DNA of 37,180 bases from a virus: positions 1 to 37,180 of IMG/VR virus record IMGVR_UViG_3300009408_000020. One strand, 5' to 3'. The position numbers and the translations under genes are program-made. Positions 9,968 through 37,178 of the stretch are shown here, piece after piece. Position 1 is the first letter of the stretch; the number at the start of each line of letters is the position of its first letter. Below the pieces are notes generated by a model. It saw only the letters and a list, made by a program, of their open reading frames with translations, was not told the origin of the DNA and did no database searches.

Positions 9968-10411
9968 ATGGAAGCATATATTGGAACCAAGCTTATTAAT
10001 GCGAAAGCAATGAATAGATTGGAATATAATAAGTTTAGAGGTTGGGAATTACCCAAAGATGAGAATGGTACAGATGAGGGTTATCTTGTTGAATACACAG
10101 ATGGGGGAGAAGTAAATACTTCAGAATATGAAGGTTATGTTAGCTGGTCACCTAAAAATGTGTTTGAGAAAGCTTATAAAGCATCTGGAGAATTATCTTT
10201 TGGTGCTGCTATTGAGTTATTAAAACAAGGTAGAAAAGTTGCCCGTAAGGGTTGGAATGATATGTTCTTATTCCTTGATACTAGTTCTACATTTAATGTA
10301 AACAATCCACCTCAACCTTGTATTATTATGAAGACTGCTGATGGTAGAGTAGTACCATGGTTAGCTAGTCAGTCTGATATGTTAGATACTGGCTGGGTAA
10401 TTATATCATGA
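9968..10411 (+). CDS. DUF2829 / Tad2-like protein with an N-terminal extra domain (putative anti-Thoeris)
   Basis: Residues about 75-147 match DUF2829: LSFGAAIELLKQGRKVARKG, then MFLFLD, IIMKTADGRVVPWLASQSDM and a closing GWVII. Tad2, an inhibitor of the bacterial Thoeris defence that sequesters a signalling nucleotide, belongs to this family. The first 70 residues form a separate small domain ending in EGYVSWSPKNVFEKAYK, a module seen at the start of other phage proteins. AAAGGAAAAAT precedes the ATG, and the stop overlaps the nrdB start as ATGA. The family call is strong; an anti-defence role follows from Tad2 and is not proven here, since many DUF2829 proteins are untested. Confidence 0.8.
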   Translation: MEAYIGTKLINAKAMNRLEYNKFRGWELPKDENGTDEGYLVEYTDGGEVNTSEYEGYVSWSPKNVFEKAYKASGELSFGAAIELLKQGRKVARKGWNDMFLFLDTSSTFNVNNPPQPCIIMKTADGRVVPWLASQSDMLDTGWVIIS

Positions 10412-11042
10412 GTAATTTACTAAACCGCTCTACTGCACTACCCGTGTATAGAGAGGCCTCTGGGATGCACTATCCTTGGGCTGAGGATTTTACTAAAACA
10501 TTGATGGATATGTTCTGGAAATTTGACTCAATTGAGTTAGGTAAAGATGTAGAGGACTTTGCTAAGGCTAGTCCTAAGGAGCGTTCAGACATTATCAACA
10601 TACTTCGATTGTTCACACAAAATGAAGTTATGGTTGGTCATGGATATACAAAGCTTGCATCTATATTCAAACCAGAGGAAGTACTTAATTGGCTGAATTA
10701 TGCCAATGGTACTGAAGTGACACATAAGATGGCATATAGTCTGTTTACAGAAACTGTATTACCAAACACAAATGTGTACACTGAGTTCCTTGACATTAAT
10801 GTTATGGCTACTAAAACTACTTATCTTGATAAAGCTAAAGTACGTAAATGGGAAGACTATAAAGCTGTTGGTTTAACTGACGCTGAGGTAGACTTTGAAT
10901 TTCGTAGAGCTGTAGCTAGGATGTTAGCACTATATGGAGGTGGGACTGAATTAGTTTCACTGTATGCCCAGTTTGCAATATTACTAGCATATCAGATGGA
11001 TGGAAAGTATCCAGGACTATGTCAAATTGTGGAATACTCGAT
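10408..11042 (+). CDS. nrdB: Ribonucleoside-diphosphate reductase, small (beta) subunit, exon 1
   Basis: The first exon encodes the N-terminal 211 residues of NrdB, which houses the di-iron and tyrosyl radical centre. Visible ligands are the Asp of KDVEDF, Glu and His of GTEVTHKMAY with the radical Tyr four residues after the His, and the Glu of GGTELVSLY. The exon runs to ACTCGAT, with the last base at 11042 forming the U of the splice-site U-G pair. Without splicing, translation stops at the TAG at 11053-11055. Joined to 11376-11784 the protein has 347 residues, the usual NrdB length. Its start overlaps the stop of the tad2-like gene. Confidence 0.92.
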
Positions 11043-11375
11043 TAACTCCAACTAGTCGAGTTTAAAGAAATTGAATTGCTGGAAAGCCCTTAGAGCCTTG
11101 TAAACTACAACGTAACCTGTGAAGGTAAGCGTGAATGTTTGAAAATTACAAGGGTTGGGTAATCAGCAGCTAAGCTACTTACTATTAAGTTAAAGTAGAA
11201 AGTTCAACGACCATCGAAAACCTGTTTTCACAAGCAGAGTTAGTAGAGTACAGCCAAGTGGCTGGAAGCGGTTTCCTTCCTTTACGGGAAGATGATATGG
11301 TCTAGTCTTATGTGAAAGCATAAGCTGCAGGTAGAGCTGCGAATGTAAATTAACGACTTACATTGAATATAAACG
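11043..11375 (+). ncRNA. Self-splicing group I intron (IA2-like) in nrdB
   Basis: A 333-nt intron with no ORF of note. The 5' splice site is fixed by P1: exon ACTCGAT (11036-11042) pairs with the guide GTCGAGT (11055-11061), giving a terminal U-G pair. The intron ends in G at 11375, and joining there restores the codon ATA and the reading EYSI-RDEYVHG. Core elements resemble those of T4 td/nrdB-type introns: P-like AATTGCTGGAAA near 11074, Q-like AATCAGCAGC at 11161, R-like GTTCAACGACC at 11202 and S-like AAGATGATATGGTC near 11289. No homing endonuclease is encoded. Confidence 0.92.
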
Positions 11376-11784
11376 AAGAGATGAGTATGTCCATGGTATG
11401 GGTAACTGTAATTTATTTCGTGATTATATTTCTGAGAACCAAGATATTTGGGATGATGAGTTAAAGCGTGATATTTATGGCGGTATGAGAGAACTTGTAT
11501 CTTATGAAGAGGCCCTAGTTGATTATATTGACCCAGAGCATGTAGATAAAGATAAATGTAAAGAGTACGTTAGATACCAAGCAGACCAGGCTCTTAAAGA
11601 GTTGGGTATGAAGGCTAACTTTGATATTGAAGTAAACCCATTTCCATTTATGGAAGAGGTTACTGGTACAATACTTACTGATTTTTTCAGTGGTAAGGTA
11701 ACAGCATATAGTCGCAAAATGCTAGGTACTAGAGAAGGTCTTCGTGCGAAGATTAAATCCAAATTAGGGGAACCAAATGAGTAA
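11376..11784 (+). CDS. nrdB: Ribonucleoside-diphosphate reductase, small (beta) subunit, exon 2
   Basis: The second exon begins with AAGAGATGAG and supplies the RDEYVHG motif, whose Glu and His are the last two iron ligands. The C-terminal part (NPFPFMEEV, then TDFFSGKVTAYSRK) is typical of the NrdB end that docks on NrdA. An internal ATG at 11398 could be mistaken for a gene start, but the sequence before it is the conserved ligand motif, so this is an exon and not a separate gene. The end overlaps the next gene by 8 nt. Confidence 0.92.
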
Positions 11785-12276: not shown

Positions 12277-12738
12277 ATGAACTTAAACCCAATCAAACAG
12301 ATATATAAGTTTAACCAAGAAGCTGGTTTATTAGTGAAAGGTTACTCAGATGGACGTGAGTGTGCCTTCCCAATTGAAGAAGCTTTAGAAGGTTTTAATA
12401 CTACTGAACTATTAGGGCAGTTACAAATGGAATCTGGGTCAAGCCCTAAGGACATCTCAAGAAAGATTATTGATTTAACTATCAATGGTACAGACTTAGA
12501 AGATGTAGATAGACTTGATAAACACTTAGATACTATTGTATTTGCTCTTGGTTCAATTTACAAACTTGGTCTAAACCCACAAGAAGCTATGAAAGCTCTT
12601 GGAATTGTAGCTGATGCTAATATGCAAAAGCTAACTGTAGGTACTGATGAAGAGGGTAAACAAATGAAACCTGAGGGTTTTATACCACCTGAACAGCAAC
12701 TACAGAAACTACTTGATACTATCAAAGCAAGAAGATAG
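12277..12738 (+). CDS. MazG/PRA-PH-like all-alpha nucleotide pyrophosphohydrolase
   Basis: A 153-aa helical protein with the layout of phage phosphoribosyl-ATP pyrophosphohydrolase-like (all-alpha NTP-PPase) proteins: KQIYKFNQEAGLL at the start, DRLDKHLDTIVFALGSIYKL in the middle, NPQEAMKALGIVADANMQKL next, and a Lys/Pro-containing PEGFIPPEQQLQKLL end. Family members hydrolyse nucleoside triphosphates, and the N-x-x-K element (ANMQK) is typical of the substrate and metal region. A role in nucleotide-pool or alarmone control beside ribonucleotide reductase is likely. AAGGAACTAAGTC precedes the ATG. It is the last protein gene of the rightward operon before the hairpin-tRNA junction. Confidence 0.7.
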   Translation: MNLNPIKQIYKFNQEAGLLVKGYSDGRECAFPIEEALEGFNTTELLGQLQMESGSSPKDISRKIIDLTINGTDLEDVDRLDKHLDTIVFALGSIYKLGLNPQEAMKALGIVADANMQKLTVGTDEEGKQMKPEGFIPPEQQLQKLLDTIKARR

Positions 12739-12742
12739 TTAT

Positions 12743-12762
12743 AACCTAGGGTAACCTAGGTT
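12743..12762 (+). terminator. Perfect 8-bp hairpin after the rightward operon (terminator-like, no T-run)
   Basis: AACCTAGG (12743-12750) and CCTAGGTT (12755-12762) pair perfectly around a GTAA tetraloop, 4 nt after the stop of the MazG-like gene. The downstream bases are TGACTCCCCC, not a T-run, so it is not a classical intrinsic terminator for a bacterial polymerase. It could stop the phage RNA polymerase, protect the 3' end of the mRNA or separate the operon from the tRNA gene. Confidence 0.45.
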
Positions 12763-12777
12763 TGACTCCCCCATTAA

Positions 12778-12831: not shown

Positions 12832-12907
12832 ATGCCCGTAACTCAGTTAGTAGAGTATCAGATTTCAAATCTGAAAGTCATAGGTGCAAATCCTATCGGG
12901 TATACCA
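12832..12907 (+). tRNA. tRNA with anticodon UCA (UGA-reading, suppressor-type)
   Basis: All parts of a 76-nt class I tRNA are present. The acceptor pairs ATGCCCG (12832-12838) with CGGGTAT (12897-12903), the D stem is ACTC/GAGT, the anticodon stem TCAGA/TCTGA is perfect, the variable loop is 5 nt, and the T stem is ATAGG/CCTAT with loop TGCAAAT. A discriminator A and an encoded CCA (12905-12907) follow. The 7-nt loop TTTCAAA fixes the anticodon as TCA (12865-12867), which reads UGA. It lacks the long variable arm of tRNA-Sec, -Ser and -Leu. The charged amino acid is unknown; Trp is possible, though bacterial Trp tRNAs usually have G73. Confidence 0.88.
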
Positions 12908-12926: not shown

Positions 12927-13034
12927 ATGTTAGCTTTATTTACACCAGGCAAGATAAAAATTGCTGTTAATGTATTGATTTTAGTAGGAAGTATTCTATA
13001 TGAAGTCAACGCACAAAAGTATAGAGGGGCTTAG
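12927..13034 (+). CDS. Possible 35-aa single-span membrane protein
   Basis: A short ORF directly after the tRNA, with AAAAAGGT about 7 nt before its ATG. The product has a basic lead (MLALFTPGKIKI), a hydrophobic span of about 15 residues (AVNVLILVGSILYEV) and a short polar C-terminus, ending in TAG 8 nt before the converging end of the vRNAP gene. Topology and ribosome binding site suggest a real small membrane protein, perhaps lysis- or exclusion-related, but no family is recognised. Confidence 0.5.
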   Translation: MLALFTPGKIKIAVNVLILVGSILYEVNAQKYRGA

Positions 13035-13042
13035 AAACCTCC

Positions 13043-16000
13043 CTATCCAAATACTTTTGTAGGAAATACTACATCTAATCCTAAGTTAGGAGTATGAAAT
13101 ATATTTCGTTCAAAGATATTAGCATCAAATATAGTGGAACCTCCCCCGATATTTAGCAAATCATTTAACATAATTGTGAACATTGCATTTACAGGGTTAT
13201 TACGTAAACTTCTGAACATAATTCTCTGAATTCTTGATGTAAATGATATAAAACTCGTTACACCCGTTTGCTCTAGAAATCTAAACTCTCTAGGTATATT
13301 TACCTTATAGTCAATGAAGTTCTCTAAAGCTTCTTGTGCTGCAACATCACTCAATGCCTTCAACTCATCTGTAGAAGGTTTTCTCTTCTTGTCTTTAACA
13401 AAATTCTTAACCTTAACATCTATATTATTCTCATAGTCAACAACTTTAGCAACAACATCTACTGCCTGTACTGCTGCAGAACCTACTGCTACCATTGAAG
13501 TACCTGGCGTACCTAAATACTCTTGTATATAAGCACTAATGTCATCTCGCTCTTTAATATCTTTGATATGTTCACCCATCTCTTTTAAAGATGCTGCAAT
13601 GGCTTGAGGGCTTGCTGCTTTTGTTTTTGACCCAAGTTTGTTAGCAACTGCTATTAATAGGTCTTCACCATTAACACCAAACTTACTAAACTTCATTATT
13701 GACTTACCAGCTATATTTAAAGACCCTTTATCATCTTTAAATAGGTAGTTAAGTAATGAAGAAACATCATTATGTAACCCAGATAATGTATGTTCATTTT
13801 TACTAGATAACTCAATCGCTAGTGACTGTATAAACCCATTAAAGTGAGCTGCTGCTAATGGATGGTTTTTAATATCATTCTCTAGCTTATTGATACGTTT
13901 TACTAATGAGGGTGTACTCTTAATTCTATTTTGAAACTCTGCTTGAAGTAGATTCTCCCTAATAGTAGTTAAGTCTGCCATATCATTCATAACACGCTTA
14001 GTTTTCGTGTAAATAACATTCACAGGAACATTACGACTCATAAGGTAAGCTACATTAGATATTGCATCTCTAGCTATCTTAGTTGGTGCTGTAATTACCC
14101 AGTGAATCTTCTGTAACAATACGGATTTCTTAAGAATACTAAAGGCTTTATTTAGAGTTGTACCAGTTTCTCCAATTTGGATTTCCTTATACCCCTCAAC
14201 AAAATCTTTCATATCTTTACGAACCAAAGTAACTGAGTCACCAAAATCTCCTGCATCTGACTTAGCATGAGCTTCTGTGTATCTACCTTGTATTTCTTTA
14301 GGTAAATCAGCAAGTGTTACATCTTTAGGTAGTTTAATGTACCAAAGGTGTTCACCTTTCTTGATAGCTTTAACTATGTCTGCAGGCTTAGTCTTACTAT
14401 CATAAGTAAACTTATCTACAATCTCCTCACGGATTGACTGTGTTTCTAATAGCATCATTCTATGAGTATATGCTTTGACTAAACTATATACTGGGTTTCT
14501 TACATAACCAAGAGTATCTAACTCTTTATTCGATAAGATAAGTCTAGCTGGTGCATCAGTATTAGTGACTGCCTTATTAGCTAGTGGGTCAAATTGCCCT
14601 GGCAGTGATAAATTAATATTTGGGTCCATCTTGAGATTTACACCTGCACCAGATTGAAATGATATATCTCCAGCATCTCTATAAATGATACCTGCCTCAG
14701 TCTTAGTAGGTTTTCTAAGTACTTTCCAACCTAATCCGCTAGACATAGCTTTATTAATATTACCAAGAGTAACAACTCTAGTTTCATTATTATTCTTAAA
14801 TACCATGTGATTAAGATTACCTGTATGCTTATCTAATTGATAAGATATAGTTGCATCTAGCTCATTATCTAAAGACTTACTAGCAACAGAGATTTCATAA
14901 AGCTTAGTAAACATATCTGTATGCTTAGAGCTAGAGTTAATCTTAGTTAGTAAGCCATTGATATTAGGTACTTTTTCCATTGCATATAAAGCAGATAACT
15001 TACTTACTTTGTCAGATATACTCGCTGGCAGGTTCAGGTCTGTCTTGTACCCGTGCTTAGGTACTACTTTATCAACATAGTATCCAGCAAGGTCTTTGGC
15101 AATAGCTTTAGCATTTCTCAATTGACCAGCAGTTAACTTAGGGTCACTCTCTAAAGATGCTATCGCATCTGCAATAGTTACATTCCCTTTCAGTATATCA
15201 GTTAGCATACTTGGTTCCAGATTAAATAGTGGAGTTTCACTAAGTAATGCATGTAAACCTTTGATGTCATCTTCAGTATATACCTTAGTAATACCACGCT
15301 GTAATTCATTAATTTCTTTCTGCTCAAAAGAAGCTTTACGTTCCTCAGCATGCAAAGATGCAGTAATGATTTTATTCATTGCTTTATAGTCAAAGTTATC
15401 ATCTAAATTCATATAGATTTTTAACTTACTAATCAATGTATTCTCATCCCACTGACGAGCTATACCATTAAAAGTATCTTTATAGATGCGTGATTTCTTC
15501 ATCATTTTTTTATGATAATCTTTACCATTTAATTTATTAGCTGTAACATCAATAGATAAGTCTAGAGTACTCTGTATAAGTTTAGCCATCTTAGCATCTA
15601 CATTAATAAATGCATCTGATATTGGTTTAGTAATCTTATCTACCCCCTCAGCTTTTTTATCTGAAGGAGAATAAGGTTTATAGTCGTTATTCAGGACATC
15701 AACGAAACCCAATTCAATCTCTGGACTTTGTTTTTTCTCTGAGTACTTAGCATCATGTAATGAACCAAGCAAGTTACCGTAAACAGTATCAAACTCATTA
15801 GGAGATAATCCTAACATTTGCATAAATGCAGCTTTGAATTTATTCCAAATACGAGTACCTACAGGCACTTGCTTAAGTTGTGCAACAAACTTAGGATTAG
15901 TAAGTCCAAGAGTTATAAACTCGTGTAATCGTTCTTTGTTGCCCATACCCTCTAATTTGTCAATTACTGCTGTAAGCTCTGGGTTTAACTTACCTTTTTG

Positions 16001-19000
16001 CTTGTAAGCATATCTGTATAGATTAGTTATTTCTGCAGCAAACTCACTATCAGTTTCAATAGCTTGAGCTGTTGCTGCGTGCACTACCTCATGTGCTATT
16101 TGTTCACTAGTATGATTAGAACCAAAGTAAATAGTATTACTACCTAGGTCATATTTAGCTTTAACACCATTATATTTTTCATCAATCACAATATTAACAT
16201 CAGGATTTCTAGATAAGGCTACATAAGACAATTTAGCTAAGTTAGTATCTTTCATTCTACCAATAGCTGCTTTAACACGCTGCATAGTTTGTTCTTGATA
16301 CCCTTTACTAGGTGTATCTAATGGTTCTACTTTAGTGTCTTCCTTACTTACTTTATTATCCTTACCTCTATAAGTACTAACCTTCTCAGCAATACTTGGT
16401 TTAACACCAAATGATGTATCAATAACAGTATTACCAATAGCTTGTTTCTTAGCTGCAATGATTTCTTTTAACTCAAGCTCAGTCTTAGCTATGTGAGCAT
16501 CTACTTTAGCTCGTAGTGCCTTATCTTGGGTCATAGAACGTGCATACTTAAGTTCTCTAAGAGCAGCTTCTACAAAGTCATATTCTTTATTAACTTCAAG
16601 GATTTGTTTCTTATATTCTTCTTCCATAGCAATAGCAAAGTCAACTGTTGAACCAACACTATCATGATTAAGCATTAAGCCATTGGTGTAATCTTTGAAT
16701 TCTGGTCTAGCATAAACAGCTTCCATTGACTTAACCAGTATTGCAGCATCTGTCATGTGTTGTAATAGTACTTTAATTGAGTTTAAGTTAGGAAAGTGTT
16801 TCTTAATAGTTGTAAGAGTCTTATCTCCAGTTTCAACTACGGCTTCATGCCATTTCTCAATAGTAGCACCAAACTCTTCACGAGCATTCTTGTAACCCTC
16901 ATCAGTATCCATACCTTCAGTATCTAATGATGCTAGAGTGGGTACAATTCTAATTTGGTCATATAAACTACCCTCAGAAAATCTAATCTCTTCTAGTAGG
17001 TTATGCATATCTTCAAGTGCTTTAGATTGGTCGTTAAATAGTTTAGCTCCTGTTGACTCCTCAACAATACTTACTAGTTTATCTGCTACACCGTTCTTCT
17101 GTGCTAGTTTAGCAATTAGCTGTATACGAAGCTCATCACCCTCAGGTAAGACAGCTTTGCTATCAATACCCAGTATCTCACGCATTAGAGGTACTTTATT
17201 ACTGTCAATTATCTTACTAGTTATTTCTTTACTAATCTCAAGTATATTATTATATTTAGCTTGACCATAAATAAACTTAGTAAATGGTAGTTTCATAAGG
17301 TCACGGGGACCATTAATAACACCTATATTAGTATCAATTATTTTATTCATCATAGCAAATACTTCATTGTCTGCAGAACCTAATGCATCTAGTGAATTAG
17401 GCTTTTTATTCCCTTGCTTATCAAGTTCTTTAATAAGTACATGTGTAGATAGTTGATACATATCTGAAAATTCTTCAGGTACCTCAGAAGTCTTAGAGTC
17501 ATAAACTCTTTTACCTAATACTAAGTCTGCTACTACCTCTGCTGCTGCAGGAGTTCTACCACTAGCTTGAAGTACTGTAATAAGTGCCCCAGAAGCTGTA
17601 GCATCTGGTTTAACTAAGAAATGTGTATTAACTTCACCCTTATCAAAACCTTTACGGATGTCACTAATCGCATTGATATAGTTCGCTACATCCCAAGCAG
17701 ATTTAGCACCTCTAATTGGTTCAGTACCTTTCTCCATATCTTTACCAATACCAAGAACTAGACCCAACTTATTAGCAGATTTATCACTGAATGCTTCAAC
17801 GTATTCATTTAGTTTAATACCATCTTTAGTATTACTTTTACCGAGAATTTCATCCATAGATAAACCAGTTTCATCCATTAGGTATCCAACCATATAATCA
17901 ATTTCTTTTTCATTAAGTGTTTGTACCTCTGGTGAACCAAGAATAGGACGAGCAAACGCTGCATCAGTCTGATAGTTCAATGTCTGCTCAAATACATGTA
18001 GTCTGTTTTGTACAGCAGTCTGGTATGTATAGTGTAAGTTTGAATCAATCAATGTATCAAAGTCATCAAATAGTCTAACTATTGGTAGGACCTTAGATAT
18101 AGACTTACCAAACTGTTGGTTAAGCCCAACCATATCAGTCGTATACGTTTCATAAAGGTTAGTAGTATCTAGTGTACCAAATACAAATTTACTAGCCTTA
18201 CTACCTGATGCATACTTAGCTATACCCATTAGGTAATCATTAGTGGTTTGATAAGTACTATCTTCTTTAATCATACCTTTTAACTCAGTAAGAGCTTCAG
18301 CAAAGAAACCTTGTATTTTAAGACTAGATTTTTGAGCCTGTGTAATGACTGCACGAGTTTCTTCTGTAGTTTCAATGTCTTGTATAGCCTCATTGATTTC
18401 TTGAGCTTCAGAGCTAGGGATAGAGCTATTAGAAGGTAGTACCAGTTTACTTACAGCTTTCAACTTACTAAGAGAAGTTTCAAGGTCTTCATTGAACTCA
18501 GTAATAGACTCATAAAAGCCATTATCAACTGATATATTATTTTCATCAACTTCAACAGTTGGGAATAGTGAATTAAGTGTTACAGTTTTAATACCAGTTA
18601 CTAATTTAGTAGCTGTAGCTTTCTTAGAGTGTTCACTATACATATCAGGGGAACCATCACTCTTATGGAAGTGTCTATTAATTATAGCTCCATTCTCATT
18701 AATACTAAGTAGACCACGTTTTTCTAACATGGCTAAAGCTTGCTCACCAACTTTAATCTCTTGCTCAATTGCAAGTTTAACCCCCTCAGGGCTTTTAGGT
18801 ATAAGTCTGTAACCTCTTGACTTAAGTATATCTCTACCAATAGTTCTCGCCATATTTGAATATGAAGTATTATACTGATGTTTACCACCAGTTATATCAG
18901 TCATATCATTACCACTATCAGTAATTTGTGCACGCTCATCTGTAGACAGTTTATATTTTAATACTAAATCCTCTTCTGATTTTTGTACTGACATTAAGTG

Positions 19001-19318
19001 GTTAATTGCTATTGCAATAGGTCGAGCCTCACCTTCAGCTAAATCACCAATACGTTTACCAAATGGGTTCTTTTTAATATAAGTTCTAAGTGTGCGTGTC
19101 TTATCTCGTACTGAACGGAAACCAGATAGTAAGCCTTCTGAACCAAATAGATTATCCCATTGGTTTGCTACTTCAGTCTTATTACCTGTAAGGAGTGTAT
19201 GTAACATGCTGTCCTTAACCAGTGAGGCCTCATATCTAGTCTGCTTAACCTCTTTTTTACTGTTAAGTACTTTGACATCTGGTGTTATTTTTATAATTTG
19301 TACATCGTTACAAGCCAT
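13043..19318 (-). CDS. Virion-encapsidated single-subunit RNA polymerase with zinc metallopeptidase motif (N4 gp50-like)
   Basis: Injected with phage DNA, this enzyme would transcribe early genes. T7/N4-type motifs appear in order: QNRLHV with R439, motif A DATASG with D572, motif B R672-x3-K676-x7-Y684-G685, and motif C NHDSVGS with D886. N4 vRNAP has its counterparts at R424, D559, K670/Y678 and D951. After the polymerase part, AHEVVHAA places a zinc metallopeptidase HExxH at 1076-1080, with a possible third ligand E1133 in RLHEF. About 950 further residues follow, including a hydrophobic stretch near 1740 (KSVLLQKIHWVITAPTK). At 2091 aa it is much shorter than N4 gp50 (about 3500). It is the last gene of the leftward late operon, as in N4. 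The ribosome binding site GAAGGA overlaps the end of the previous gene. Confidence 0.9.
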   Translation of the reverse strand: MACNDVQIIKITPDVKVLNSKKEVKQTRYEASLVKDSMLHTLLTGNKTEVANQWDNLFGSEGLLSGFRSVRDKTRTLRTYIKKNPFGKRIGDLAEGEARPIAIAINHLMSVQKSEEDLVLKYKLSTDERAQITDSGNDMTDITGGKHQYNTSYSNMARTIGRDILKSRGYRLIPKSPEGVKLAIEQEIKVGEQALAMLEKRGLLSINENGAIINRHFHKSDGSPDMYSEHSKKATATKLVTGIKTVTLNSLFPTVEVDENNISVDNGFYESITEFNEDLETSLSKLKAVSKLVLPSNSSIPSSEAQEINEAIQDIETTEETRAVITQAQKSSLKIQGFFAEALTELKGMIKEDSTYQTTNDYLMGIAKYASGSKASKFVFGTLDTTNLYETYTTDMVGLNQQFGKSISKVLPIVRLFDDFDTLIDSNLHYTYQTAVQNRLHVFEQTLNYQTDAAFARPILGSPEVQTLNEKEIDYMVGYLMDETGLSMDEILGKSNTKDGIKLNEYVEAFSDKSANKLGLVLGIGKDMEKGTEPIRGAKSAWDVANYINAISDIRKGFDKGEVNTHFLVKPDATASGALITVLQASGRTPAAAEVVADLVLGKRVYDSKTSEVPEEFSDMYQLSTHVLIKELDKQGNKKPNSLDALGSADNEVFAMMNKIIDTNIGVINGPRDLMKLPFTKFIYGQAKYNNILEISKEITSKIIDSNKVPLMREILGIDSKAVLPEGDELRIQLIAKLAQKNGVADKLVSIVEESTGAKLFNDQSKALEDMHNLLEEIRFSEGSLYDQIRIVPTLASLDTEGMDTDEGYKNAREEFGATIEKWHEAVVETGDKTLTTIKKHFPNLNSIKVLLQHMTDAAILVKSMEAVYARPEFKDYTNGLMLNHDSVGSTVDFAIAMEEEYKKQILEVNKEYDFVEAALRELKYARSMTQDKALRAKVDAHIAKTELELKEIIAAKKQAIGNTVIDTSFGVKPSIAEKVSTYRGKDNKVSKEDTKVEPLDTPSKGYQEQTMQRVKAAIGRMKDTNLAKLSYVALSRNPDVNIVIDEKYNGVKAKYDLGSNTIYFGSNHTSEQIAHEVVHAATAQAIETDSEFAAEITNLYRYAYKQKGKLNPELTAVIDKLEGMGNKERLHEFITLGLTNPKFVAQLKQVPVGTRIWNKFKAAFMQMLGLSPNEFDTVYGNLLGSLHDAKYSEKKQSPEIELGFVDVLNNDYKPYSPSDKKAEGVDKITKPISDAFINVDAKMAKLIQSTLDLSIDVTANKLNGKDYHKKMMKKSRIYKDTFNGIARQWDENTLISKLKIYMNLDDNFDYKAMNKIITASLHAEERKASFEQKEINELQRGITKVYTEDDIKGLHALLSETPLFNLEPSMLTDILKGNVTIADAIASLESDPKLTAGQLRNAKAIAKDLAGYYVDKVVPKHGYKTDLNLPASISDKVSKLSALYAMEKVPNINGLLTKINSSSKHTDMFTKLYEISVASKSLDNELDATISYQLDKHTGNLNHMVFKNNNETRVVTLGNINKAMSSGLGWKVLRKPTKTEAGIIYRDAGDISFQSGAGVNLKMDPNINLSLPGQFDPLANKAVTNTDAPARLILSNKELDTLGYVRNPVYSLVKAYTHRMMLLETQSIREEIVDKFTYDSKTKPADIVKAIKKGEHLWYIKLPKDVTLADLPKEIQGRYTEAHAKSDAGDFGDSVTLVRKDMKDFVEGYKEIQIGETGTTLNKAFSILKKSVLLQKIHWVITAPTKIARDAISNVAYLMSRNVPVNVIYTKTKRVMNDMADLTTIRENLLQAEFQNRIKSTPSLVKRINKLENDIKNHPLAAAHFNGFIQSLAIELSSKNEHTLSGLHNDVSSLLNYLFKDDKGSLNIAGKSIMKFSKFGVNGEDLLIAVANKLGSKTKAASPQAIAASLKEMGEHIKDIKERDDISAYIQEYLGTPGTSMVAVGSAAVQAVDVVAKVVDYENNIDVKVKNFVKDKKRKPSTDELKALSDVAAQEALENFIDYKVNIPREFRFLEQTGVTSFISFTSRIQRIMFRSLRNNPVNAMFTIMLNDLLNIGGGSTIFDANIFERNIFHTPNLGLDVVFPTKVFG

Positions 19319-22300
19319 TTAGCATCCTTCATCTGTATTAATATCTGTTCCTGGTATATCTGTTACCACTTCAGTTTCTTTACCTTCAATCAAATCATTA
19401 AACATTTCTTTAACACTTTGATAAATTTCAAGTGAACTAGTATCACCATACTCTTTCTTAAATTTTTTGAACTGTTTCTTGAGTTCTATGTTACCCTTTC
19501 TCTTGGCAACAATAAGATTTGCTATTATAGTATTAAAATCTTTAGTAAGTTCTTTGCCTAACCCTGACTCTTTGATACTATCTATCTTGTCATTAACCTT
19601 AGTCTTGACAGTTTCCTCAGTCTGTTGTCTACCCTCAGGTGTTGTATTAGCTTTAACAGTAGATTTAGCTGACTCATAAGTCTTCTTAATAAATGCAGTA
19701 AATTTATCTTTAGTAAAGTCTGTGTTATCAAATTTCAAGTTATCAGGAAGTTTATCTAAGTAAGGTTGAACATCTTCTTTAGTTAAATTACCCATTTTAA
19801 CAGCTTTACCAAACAACTTAGCAACGAATACTCGCTCGTTGAGTGTCATCTTAGAGTCTACTAGTTTACCAAGCTTACCTAATGCATTCTTTATATCAGC
19901 TCTAGTTGTAGTCTTGGCTCCACTAAGAATAGTTGTACCTGTCTTTACAAAGGCTTTTCTAACTTCTTTTGGGTCTACATCTTTAATATCAGACTTACTA
20001 AATTTTTCTTGTATATCTTTCAATAGCTTATCAGCAAACTTCTTACCAAAGTTACCAGAAGCTACAAGTATATTAACAGCTTCCTCAATAATAGGTACAT
20101 CATCAATAGATATACTATCTAGGTCTTTACTAACATCTGCAACCATTTTCTGTGCAGTTTTTATAGTTTGTTTATCATCCTTAGTAGTTCGATTTTTATC
20201 AGTAGCTTTCTCATTCGGTTTACTCTGTTTCTCAGCCTTAGCTCTATCAGCAGCCTCTTTAAGTTTTTGTAATTTGTCTTTAGCAAAATCAACTATAGTT
20301 TCCTTCAATGTTTTATCAGGTGAATAAGTCTTCTTTACTTTTTTACGACTACTCTTAATACGTTTAGCTGTAGCTACTAGCTGTTCAGCTTTAGTCTGCT
20401 CTGGAAGTTTACGCATCTGTGCACGTAGTCTAGCTGCTTTACTTAGGTTTGGGTTAGCTAATATAGTTTTCTGCTTCTTAGCAGCAATATTTATAGCTCT
20501 ACTACCCTCTTTAATAATTTCATCAAGTGTACCATTATCATACTTCTGCATTTCAACTTCAGCTTCTGAAGGTTTAGCAATACCAAGTACACGTTTAACA
20601 ATACCTGCAGACTTACTATTTTTAGTTTGTCCAATATTTTTAGCACTGCTTTTAGCACTAAGAGGTTTAGCTTTTGACTTAGCATATTCAGAAGTTGATT
20701 TATTAATTGAACCAGCTCGATTAAGTTGGGCTTTTGCACTTTGGTAACTGACTTTAGTACCACCAGAACTTACTACCGCTGTAGCTTGCTTTTGTAGGCT
20801 TGTTTGAGCTGTGTTAAAGGCATCTTTAATCTTGGGTGACAAACTATCTGCATTACTAGCTAAGAATGCTCCTAGCTTCTGAAATGCACCTGCTCCTGGA
20901 CTATTCACAATATCTTGTAATGTTTGTTTATCCATCTTAGCTGCAAGAGTTTCATCTTGACTAATTTTATCTAGTAAAGTATTAGTTTCCTCTGAACCAA
21001 ACTGAGATACAAGTTGGTTAGTTCCACTATCTGTAGCCTGGGATGCTTCTTGCATTCTAGCTTGAGTATTCACCACTTTAGTATAATCATTATATTCAGG
21101 GTTATTATTAATAGCCCCTACGTCATTTTCGACAGCAGTAAGGTTATCAAAGTTCTCTTTAGCACTATTATAATTAGCGTCTAAAGTATCAATTTGATTT
21201 TGTTGGTCCTCTGGGTTAGCAAATCCTACATCAATATTTTTCTTAGGGTTATTATATAATTTGTTAAGCTTACCTTCTTTATTAAGCCCTTGCCTTAGTC
21301 CACTTAATTGGCTCGGTACACCCGTAACTAAACCTGCACCACCACCTAAGAACATAGCTGTTAGTGCTTCAAGGTTGCTACCTTTATTAAATACATCAAG
21401 AAAGTTCTGTGTATCTTTAGCCCCCCACTTAGCATTAACTAATTCACCCCAAGTTTGTACATACTCCTGTAATCCCTCTTCAGTCATATTTTTAGCACCA
21501 ACTAAAAGTGTCTTAGCTACCTGTTTAGTAACACCAAACCTAGATGCTTTATCTAAAGTACCCCATAGTTCTTTTATAACTGGAGCTTTGCTGAATTTAA
21601 CTATGTCTTTAAATGCCAGTTTATCTAGTGCGTTTAGGATTATATTTGTAGACCACACTCTTGCTGCAGTACCTAAAGTAACCTCACCACCATTAGCACT
21701 TAACTCTTCTAGGTGTTTTTGTGTTTGTATATTTGCAAAGTTAATAAGCCCTACATTCTTATTAGATATGTTTAATATCTTAGTATGTAGTGCTAACTGC
21801 TTACGTGCAGCAATTTTAGATGCTTTGACAGCTTGCTTAGTTGCTTTAGTACCTAACCCACTAGCTTTAGCTACTTTAAATGCAGCATTTCCAGCTGCTT
21901 GTACAGCTTTAACTTCACCTATACCAATGAAGTATGATGCCATCACTGGTAAACTATCAACAATAGTACCTGGGGCAGCTTTAAGTGCTGCAGTAGCTGC
22001 AGTACCGTAATTACCCTTATCAATGTTATCCATAACATTGGCTTGTTGGGCGTTAAGTCTGGTTCTATCATAACCAAAAGTTGCATCAGCATTCTTACCT
22101 GAAAATTGGTCAAAGAAATTTGTTGCAGTATTAAAGTCTTCTTGTGAGTAGAAATCACCACCAGTAGCATCTGACAGCCCTTTAACAGCATATGCCCCAC
22201 CAGTAGTAATTAAGTCAGCAGTATCAGCTAGTAGTGATTGTGTACCTGCAGCAAATTGACGACCAAAACCATCTGAAGTACTAGAGTTACCATCAGTAGC

Positions 22301-22546
22301 CCCATAAAGTAATTCATCTAAAGTAGGTGCATTATCTGCTTCATATTGGGCAGTACCTTGTATACTAATCTTTTTAGCTTCAGATGCTTGTTGTAATAGT
22401 TTAGCTTTTTCTTGGTAAAGTGGTGCTAGGAAACTACCTGTATCAGTGCTAGCTAAAGCACCATTACCAATGTCAAATCCTTGTTCAGCTTGTGTACCTG
22501 TGCCTAAGTCTAGTCCAACTAGACCATTAGGGTTTGTGTCATTCAT
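19319..22546 (-). CDS. Large internal virion / ejection protein, 1075 aa (N4 gp51 position)
   Basis: The N-terminal half is Ala/Gly/Thr-rich with amphipathic and weakly hydrophobic stretches (AAPGTIVDSLPVMASYFIGI near 190) and a conserved-looking MTEEGLQEYVQTWGELVNA near 370. The second half, from about 600, is very rich in Lys, Ala and Glu and is probably elongated helix or coiled coil. The middle has the Ser/Lys low-complexity part AKSKAKPLSAKSSAKNI. Such proteins are packed in podovirus heads and leave with the DNA. I see no transglycosylase motif. Its stop codon directly abuts the vRNAP start, so the two are probably made in fixed ratio. Confidence 0.7.
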   Translation of the reverse strand: MNDTNPNGLVGLDLGTGTQAEQGFDIGNGALASTDTGSFLAPLYQEKAKLLQQASEAKKISIQGTAQYEADNAPTLDELLYGATDGNSSTSDGFGRQFAAGTQSLLADTADLITTGGAYAVKGLSDATGGDFYSQEDFNTATNFFDQFSGKNADATFGYDRTRLNAQQANVMDNIDKGNYGTAATAALKAAPGTIVDSLPVMASYFIGIGEVKAVQAAGNAAFKVAKASGLGTKATKQAVKASKIAARKQLALHTKILNISNKNVGLINFANIQTQKHLEELSANGGEVTLGTAARVWSTNIILNALDKLAFKDIVKFSKAPVIKELWGTLDKASRFGVTKQVAKTLLVGAKNMTEEGLQEYVQTWGELVNAKWGAKDTQNFLDVFNKGSNLEALTAMFLGGGAGLVTGVPSQLSGLRQGLNKEGKLNKLYNNPKKNIDVGFANPEDQQNQIDTLDANYNSAKENFDNLTAVENDVGAINNNPEYNDYTKVVNTQARMQEASQATDSGTNQLVSQFGSEETNTLLDKISQDETLAAKMDKQTLQDIVNSPGAGAFQKLGAFLASNADSLSPKIKDAFNTAQTSLQKQATAVVSSGGTKVSYQSAKAQLNRAGSINKSTSEYAKSKAKPLSAKSSAKNIGQTKNSKSAGIVKRVLGIAKPSEAEVEMQKYDNGTLDEIIKEGSRAINIAAKKQKTILANPNLSKAARLRAQMRKLPEQTKAEQLVATAKRIKSSRKKVKKTYSPDKTLKETIVDFAKDKLQKLKEAADRAKAEKQSKPNEKATDKNRTTKDDKQTIKTAQKMVADVSKDLDSISIDDVPIIEEAVNILVASGNFGKKFADKLLKDIQEKFSKSDIKDVDPKEVRKAFVKTGTTILSGAKTTTRADIKNALGKLGKLVDSKMTLNERVFVAKLFGKAVKMGNLTKEDVQPYLDKLPDNLKFDNTDFTKDKFTAFIKKTYESAKSTVKANTTPEGRQQTEETVKTKVNDKIDSIKESGLGKELTKDFNTIIANLIVAKRKGNIELKKQFKKFKKEYGDTSSLEIYQSVKEMFNDLIEGKETEVVTDIPGTDINTDEGC

Positions 22547-36598: not shown

Positions 36599-36678
36599 GA
36601 ACCATTACCTCTATTTTTATGTACTCTATTGTCTTTAAATACGAATGGTTTATTATCTGTGTCTGTGTAATATTTCAT
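36595..36678 (-). CDS. 27-aa coupled microprotein in the lysis cassette
   Basis: A short frame, MKYYTDTDNKPFVFKDNRVH followed by KNRGNGS, that overlaps the gene before and the holin gene after by ATGA at both ends. AAAGGAAG lies 5 nt before the ATG. The double overlap and strong ribosome binding site argue that it is translated. The peptide is polar and basic with no membrane segment; its role could be to couple translation of the holin to the upstream gene. Confidence 0.5.
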   Translation of the reverse strand: MKYYTDTDNKPFVFKDNRVHKNRGNGS

Positions 36679-37178
36679 ATAACTTCCTTTATTGTATAGC
36701 CGTTAGCCGTCATAGCTTCTACCACAAACTCAGGCAACTGCTCAATGAGAGCGTGCGTAAGACTATAATCTTTTATAACTATATTGTCTTTATCAAAGTC
36801 AAAGTATTTAGCATAAGTATTTAACCTAGTAACCATAAGACATGGTTCTTCCATACCTAAGGTATGATAGTCATAGCATATATCATCAAAGCTAATAAAG
36901 ACTTTCTCACCATTACTAAATGCTTCTAGCTCATGTAATTCAAATAGAGTATTCTTCATGACTGATACTAAGACTTTAGTAATATCCACCATGAATTGAG
37001 CAGGATTATCTTCTGGTAATTGTGCTATCTTAGCTTTTAAGTACTCATACATATAGCTATGAGCTTCTAGCCATACAGTTGTATACTTTTTATCGAAGTA
37101 CTCAGGATTCTCTTTCATAGTGCATACATATACCCGTTCTAGTCTATCGGAGATAACCATCGCTATCTCTTTAGCATT
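36675..37178 (-). CDS. Hypothetical protein, partial at the right edge
   Basis: A soluble, acidic, alpha/beta protein that I do not recognise. The frame stays open to the window edge: six codons (NAKEIA) precede the ATG at 37160 and look like part of the same helix as MVISDRLERVY, so the true start may lie outside. If 37160 is the start, AAAGAGAT could serve as a ribosome binding site and the protein has 161 residues. Notable parts are FDDICYDYHTLGMEEPCL and the closing VVEAMTANGYTIKEVI. It ends in TGA within an ATGA overlap at the head of the lysis cassette. Confidence 0.6.
   Translation of the reverse strand, partial: NAKEIAMVISDRLERVYVCTMKENPEYFDKKYTTVWLEAHSYMYEYLKAKIAQLPEDNPAQFMVDITKVLVSVMKNTLFELHELEAFSNGEKVFISFDDICYDYHTLGMEEPCLMVTRLNTYAKYFDFDKDNIVIKDYSLTHALIEQLPEFVVEAMTANGYTIKEVI

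Follow-up and report, generated by a model that had tools for sequence, protein, structure and literature searches.

The window analysed here, 37,180 bases long, is the whole of IMG/VR record IMGVR_UViG_3300009408_000020, a phage genome fragment, and a contig from another metagenome (IMGVR_UViG_3300023500_000006, 47,265 bp; hereafter, G003) is 99.95% identical to it over the window and extends it by 10 kb. PHROG matches gave an N4-like gene order, in which DNA polymerase, primase, a Sak4-like protein and ribonucleotide reductase are encoded on one strand and a giant virion protein, the major capsid protein, the tape measure and the portal on the other. Compared with a core gene list for N4-like phages (Schitoviridae; PMC7650795), the N4 set of DNA polymerase, primase, portal, major capsid and tape measure is present, and the portal is at most 49% identical to those of N4-like phages of Klebsiella and Salmonella; the N4-type context proposed in an earlier reading of the window from its letters alone (hereafter, the sequence-only reading) is borne out by this gene set and portal identity. 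A tRNA gene with a UCA anticodon (Table 1) closes the plus-strand block, directly before the convergent minus-strand block; it is 100% identical in G003 and is the only tRNA in the 47 kb known from the window and G003 together, N4-like genomes spanning 59-80 kb. No host-bound relative was found when genome contigs were scanned for the giant virion protein, and no release factor or synthetase, TrpRS included, was seen among the scanned proteins of the known 47 kb.

Table 1. Features of the UCA tRNA locus, in window coordinates
Feature	Position	Strand	Description	Basis
Upstream gene	12277..12738	+	153 aa; immediately precedes the tRNA; locus marker in relatives; matches C-terminal part of PHROG 671 (nucleotide pyrophosphohydrolase)	
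tRNA gene	12832..12907	+	Anticodon UCA; 76 nt; CCA encoded; G3:U70; A73; A18/G55 elbow	ARAGORN, Rfam, fold, identical copy in IMGVR_UViG_3300023500_000006
G3	12834	+	Acceptor stem, partner U70 (12901); G3-C70 in relative	Position comparison
Anticodon	12865..12867	+	TCA; CCA in related tRNA-Trp of G002 (L003:16424-16499)	
U70	12901	+	C in related tRNA-Trp; makes G3:U70 pair	Position comparison; identity rules (PMC9976931)
Discriminator A73	12904	+	G73 in related tRNA-Trp; A73 in 17/18 surveyed Ala tRNAs	
Downstream ORF	12927..13034	+	Conserved, 35 aa; directly downstream of the tRNA; locus marker; present in four contigs	Pattern scan
Giant virion protein	13043..19318	-	2091 aa; late block; C-terminus homologous to N4 virion RNA polymerase; contains candidate UGA site	PHROG 2206 (E=6.6e-26); relatives' alignment
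Codon 2025	13244..13246	-	In giant virion protein; TCA (Ser) in window, TGA in G003; G to C at 13245 (+)	

In both the window and its close relative G002, the N4-type virion RNA polymerase region (13043-22546 in the window) comprises two ORFs (2091 and 1075 aa). Compared with the ~3500-aa N4-type virion RNA polymerase, the C-terminal part alone is recognisable in the 2091-aa protein, which carries a conserved HELVHA (HExxH) motif; PHROG and PDB searches found no polymerase core in the region. In a separate comparison, BLAST of a 7-kb stretch with annotated phages gave no match. Elsewhere in the window, a group I intron at 10964-11324 (Rfam RF00028, 64.9 bits) splits the ribonucleotide reductase small subunit gene into ORFs 10408-11055 and 11398-11784, and the close relative G004 also has a group I intron (L012:8466-8751). 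The DNA polymerase gene of a third close relative, G001 (IMGVR_UViG_3300026458_000070), contains ~930 bp of extra sequence between segments that are adjacent in G003 (L022, ~1916-2848), probably an intron or homing element. The window and G003 differ in 20 places, 12 of them within the final 270 bp (36910-37167), in or just past the gene at 36675-37160; either this gene is variable or the contig end is chimeric. Upstream of the tRNA, the stretch CCTAGGTTTGACTCCCCC (12749-12775) resembles by eye a leftover tRNA T-arm, although Rfam reports none.

ARAGORN called a tRNA with anticodon TCA over exactly the tabulated span, Rfam RF00005 matched it at full length with 67.6 bits against a cut-off of 29 bits (E=8e-13), and the RNA was predicted to fold into a complete cloverleaf (-20.9 kcal/mol, z=-3.9) that none of the shuffled sequences equalled in stability. 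It has stems of 7, 4, 5 and 5 bp, a variable region of 5 nt and a 7-nt anticodon loop, UUUCAAA. The sequence-only reading had described a complete tRNA gene with a UCA anticodon, the loop TTTCAAA and an encoded CCA; ARAGORN, which it had suggested as a check, assigned no other anticodon, and the Rfam match and the fold agree with it. Its description of all four stems as perfect holds in that every stem is paired, but acceptor pair 3:70 is a G:U wobble; decay with mismatched stems, which it had named, for copies in relatives, as a sign against its reading, is not seen in the stems of the window tRNA. ARAGORN labelled the gene 'tRNA-SeC' because of the UCA anticodon and nothing more: the anticodon is shared with tRNA-Sec, but a length of 76 nt, a 7-bp acceptor stem, a 5-bp T stem and a 5-nt variable region in place of a long arm rule that identity out.

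We located the same locus in relatives by the genes that flank the tRNA. In G002 it holds seven tRNAs, and the one nearest to the giant gene is a tRNA-Trp(CCA) with G73, to which the window tRNA is identical at 59 of 76 positions (78%); no other tRNA compared at that stage matched it at more than 51. G004 has a tRNA-Ile and a broken tRNA-Asn at this place, and in G001 an insert interrupts the anticodon loop of a tRNA-Trp. The UCA anticodon occurs in one population only; its close relatives carry tRNAs for Trp, Asn or Ile at this place, or lack tRNAs. Across 44 loci from wider N4-like relatives, most were without tRNAs and none had UCA, and two wide pattern scans of viral contigs found other UCA tRNAs (e.g., L035, L044 and L048), none of them with G3:U70 in a paired stem. 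One of these contigs, L048 (IMGVR_UViG_3300036781_000418; 342,591 bp, a huge phage), carries two different tRNA-UCA genes within ~200 bp.

The 17 differences between the window tRNA and the G002 tRNA-Trp comprise 12 in stems and five at positions 16 (variable), 18, 34, 55 and 73. Four anticodon-stem pairs (27:43, 28:42, 29:41 and 30:40) differ on both sides and remain paired, which argues that the structure has been maintained. Taken together, these sequence comparisons support the descent of the UCA tRNA from a phage tRNA-Trp(CCA) within the phage lineage. The insert in the G001 tRNA-Trp (L011:10861-11370) is 437 bp long, lies between positions 34 and 35 and contains a 129-aa HNH-type ORF, the HNH call being a weak Pfam match below the cut-off; it begins with TTGACT-17-TATAAT, by eye a sigma-70-like promoter, and no ribozyme was found in it.

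Two of the changes relative to the G002 tRNA-Trp, G18A and U55G (12849 and 12886), affect the elbow, where the loss of the G18-Psi55 contact could have been a mark of decay. That possibility was ruled out by the covariation of the two positions in phage tRNAs: over all fetched viral loci, A18 was present in 105 of 111 tRNAs with G55, and G18 in 273 of 292 with U55. The counts for the 18/55 combinations A/G, G/G, G/U and A/U were 84, 1, 24 and 0 in one fixed D-arm frame, and 56, 4, 273 and 3 when scan-selected tRNAs were dropped. A18-G55 is therefore a regular alternative elbow of phage tRNAs, and no account of it was found in the literature searched. The combination occurred in 105 of 413 CCA-ended phage tRNAs (about a quarter, a share inflated by the scan; 56 of 362 once those selected by the scan are set aside), spread over many isotypes with hardly any mixed cases (L213-L291 and other loci); such tRNAs cannot carry Psi55.

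The changes at identity positions relative to the G002 tRNA-Trp are C34U, C70U and G73A. The first is predicted to make the window tRNA a reader of UGA, and the other two alter the signals recognised by synthetases. In B. subtilis, the major determinant for TrpRS is G73 (PMC9976931), and the G3:U70 pair is the main determinant of alanine charging by AlaRS in all domains of life (PMC9976931; also PMC6451123). In our survey of phage tRNAs in the fetched loci, 16 of the 18 Ala tRNAs carried G3:U70, against 5 of the 434 others; among those five, the window tRNA alone has A73, and the other four keep G73. The window tRNA thus combines G3:U70 with A73, the alanine elements, and in place of the CCA anticodon and G73 of bacterial tRNA-Trp it has UCA and A73. 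From these elements we predict that it is probably loaded with alanine and not with tryptophan. Known prokaryotic tRNA-Ala has G1-C72 and G2-C71 (PMC9976931); because the window tRNA has A1-U72 and U2-A71, we do not file it as a tRNA-Ala, only as one probably charged like it. The sequence-only reading had foreseen neither the Trp ancestry nor the loss of G73 and the gain of G3:U70.

The phage uses the standard code, and TGA is one of its normal stops. The 35 called ORFs of the window contain 88 TGG codons and no in-frame TGA, and they end in TAA (21), TAG (10) or TGA (4), which rules out a genome-wide code 4 (UGA = Trp). We found no signal that the lineage avoids TGA stops: in G003, 9 of the 51 stops are TGA, and TGA stops are often common to relatives; G002, a relative without the UCA tRNA, likewise avoids TGA in its late genes. 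We looked for possible targets of the tRNA by setting G003 against relatives with code 4 applied, and disregarded TGA matches in shadow ORFs (opposite strand or another frame). A single in-frame TGA in a real gene emerged, in G003: one of the eight SNPs that separate it from the window outside the contig end converts codon 2025 of the giant virion protein to TGA. The standard code with Trp encoded by TGG, as the sequence-only reading had it, is thus upheld by the codon counts; its proposal that recoding be limited to particular UGA codons fits the lone TGA of G003, but the window itself holds none, and its suggestion to look for in-frame UGA beyond the window yielded this one case.

Residue 2025 is Ser in the window, G001, G002 and G004, and G, K, N or A in more distant relatives; it is never W, and alanine should therefore be acceptable there. 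The 66 residues that follow are 73-91% identical in the close relatives G001, G002 and G004, so truncation at codon 2025 should matter. The TGA could also have arisen by chance or as an assembly error, being a single base in a single assembly: under a neutral model, 0.97% of random substitutions in these genes create a TGA, giving a probability of 7% for eight changes and 16% for 18, and TGA makes up 21% of random nonsense changes. Our reading presumes that it is a real base in the G003 population.

We favor, on balance, an interpretation in which the gene encodes a UGA suppressor tRNA of Trp ancestry, probably charged with alanine, that allows the phage to tolerate sporadic UGA codons in late genes with no recoding of the genome. 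In the proposed sequence of events, C34U in a tRNA-Trp(CCA) of the phage lineage would have produced an anticodon that pairs with UGA and weakly with UGG, and C70U and G73A would have removed the bacterial Trp identity and conferred G3:U70 and A73, so that the host alanyl-tRNA synthetase could charge the tRNA with alanine. The tRNA would presumably be transcribed with the early/middle plus-strand block and, because it sits at the end of that block, would be in place when translation of the late minus-strand block starts. There it may decode UGA by inserting alanine, a small residue, at sporadic sites such as codon 2025 in the sister population. The effect would be tolerance of UGA codons that drift into late genes, as distinct from recoding. 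A stronger version, in which a natural switch of identity from Trp to Ala and of codon to UGA has produced an alanine opal suppressor acting at a few late-gene UGA codons, and with it the start of recoding, is one that we put forward tentatively and regard as somewhat doubtful. We know of no phage tRNA that reads UGA as alanine. Several considerations weigh against suppression: because TGA also serves this phage as a normal stop, strong suppression would add residues to several proteins; wobble reading of UGG as alanine would do harm; codon 2025 is TCA in the window; and the UCA anticodon is confined to one population.

A suppressor could instead insert tryptophan, with the ancestral charging kept and only the codon changed, as in code-4 phages. 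Descent from tRNA-Trp(CCA) and retention of A1-U72, which is common in phage Trp tRNAs, fit this idea, as does the fact that phage recoding of UGA is known to Trp (PMC10136315, PMC10746230). We nevertheless consider it distinctly unlikely because the Trp discriminator has been lost and the alanine identity pair gained: G73, kept in 15 of 16 surveyed phage Trp tRNAs, is gone along with C34, no TrpRS is present among the scanned proteins of the 47 kb, and W is absent at the candidate site. Relaxed selection offers a different account, in which a redundant tRNA-Trp drifted to UCA and G3:U70 and is of little or no use, the TGA of G003 being an error or a dead variant. The tRNA tract of the clade is indeed eroding, from seven tRNAs in G002 to the broken tRNA-Asn of G004 and the tRNA-Trp of G001 broken by its HNH-type gene, and C70U and C34U are simple transitions. 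Yet the tRNA-model score of the window tRNA (67.6) exceeds that of the sister tRNA-Trp (59.3), all of its stems pair, A18/G55 is a coupled change, and it is the sole tRNA remaining in 47 kb; an intact UCA tRNA that was expressed yet useless would, moreover, be expected to do harm. We regard drift as fairly unlikely.

Two further accounts invoke conflict with other genetic elements. C34U would destroy the presumed target of an HNH-type gene that inserts into the anticodon loop of tRNA-Trp, and the split between positions 34 and 35 of the G001 tRNA-Trp, by an insert in which no ribozyme was found, is in keeping with such a homing endonuclease; escape from it would leave C70U and G73A unexplained, and we judge it very improbable. 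Phage tRNAs with altered anticodon loops are a known form of counter-defence, and the window tRNA might in the same way serve as a decoy or a replacement when tRNA-Trp is cut by an anticodon nuclease or toxin of the host. A decoy of tRNA-Trp would be expected to retain CCA, however, and no host or defence system is known for this phage, leaving this explanation with scarcely any probability in our view.

The favored interpretation, a probably Ala-charged UGA suppressor of Trp ancestry, addresses the question of how phages start to use a stop codon as sense. Three stages can be seen side by side here: tRNA-Trp(CCA), the presumed ancestor, as present in a close relative; the altered tRNA of the window; and, in a sister population, a conserved gene that contains a single candidate UGA codon. 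If the alanine prediction is true, a switch of synthetase identity through a single G:U pair, familiar for many years from engineered tRNAs, would have occurred in nature, and UGA would be suppressed with alanine, compared with the Trp (PMC10136315, PMC10746230) or Gly (PMC13037316) of the phage UGA recoding that those papers describe. The case also cautions that a UCA tRNA is not always a tRNA-Sec or a tRNA-Trp.

Like Zeta crAss-like and other code-4 phages, the window phage encodes its own tRNA-UCA (PMC10136315, PMC10746230), and suppressor tRNAs without genome-wide recoding have already been described in other phages, some Zeta crAss clades among them having such tRNAs without reassignment, as here (PMC10136315). 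Unlike the recoding phages, it is N4-like, shows no genome-wide recoding, has Ala and not Trp identity elements in its tRNA, and has no release factor or synthetase among the scanned proteins of its known 47 kb. The engineered tRNAs of Hou and Schimmel (1988) and McClain and Foss (1988), as they are cited in PMC7373986, became alanine-accepting when G3:U70 was placed in other tRNA bodies, a change that in the window tRNA arose naturally. Of standard-code bacterial genomes, 0.3% carry suppressor tRNAs that have been described as decoders of stops created by nonsense mutation (PMC13092985); these tRNAs are likewise natural stop readers without genome-wide reassignment, but the present case lies in a phage genome and involves a predicted identity switch. 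The UAG-to-Ala tRNAs of chlorophyte mitochondria (PMC7609411) also combine stop reading with alanine identity elements; unlike them, the window tRNA would read UGA, belongs to a phage, appears to descend from tRNA-Trp and would be used sporadically.
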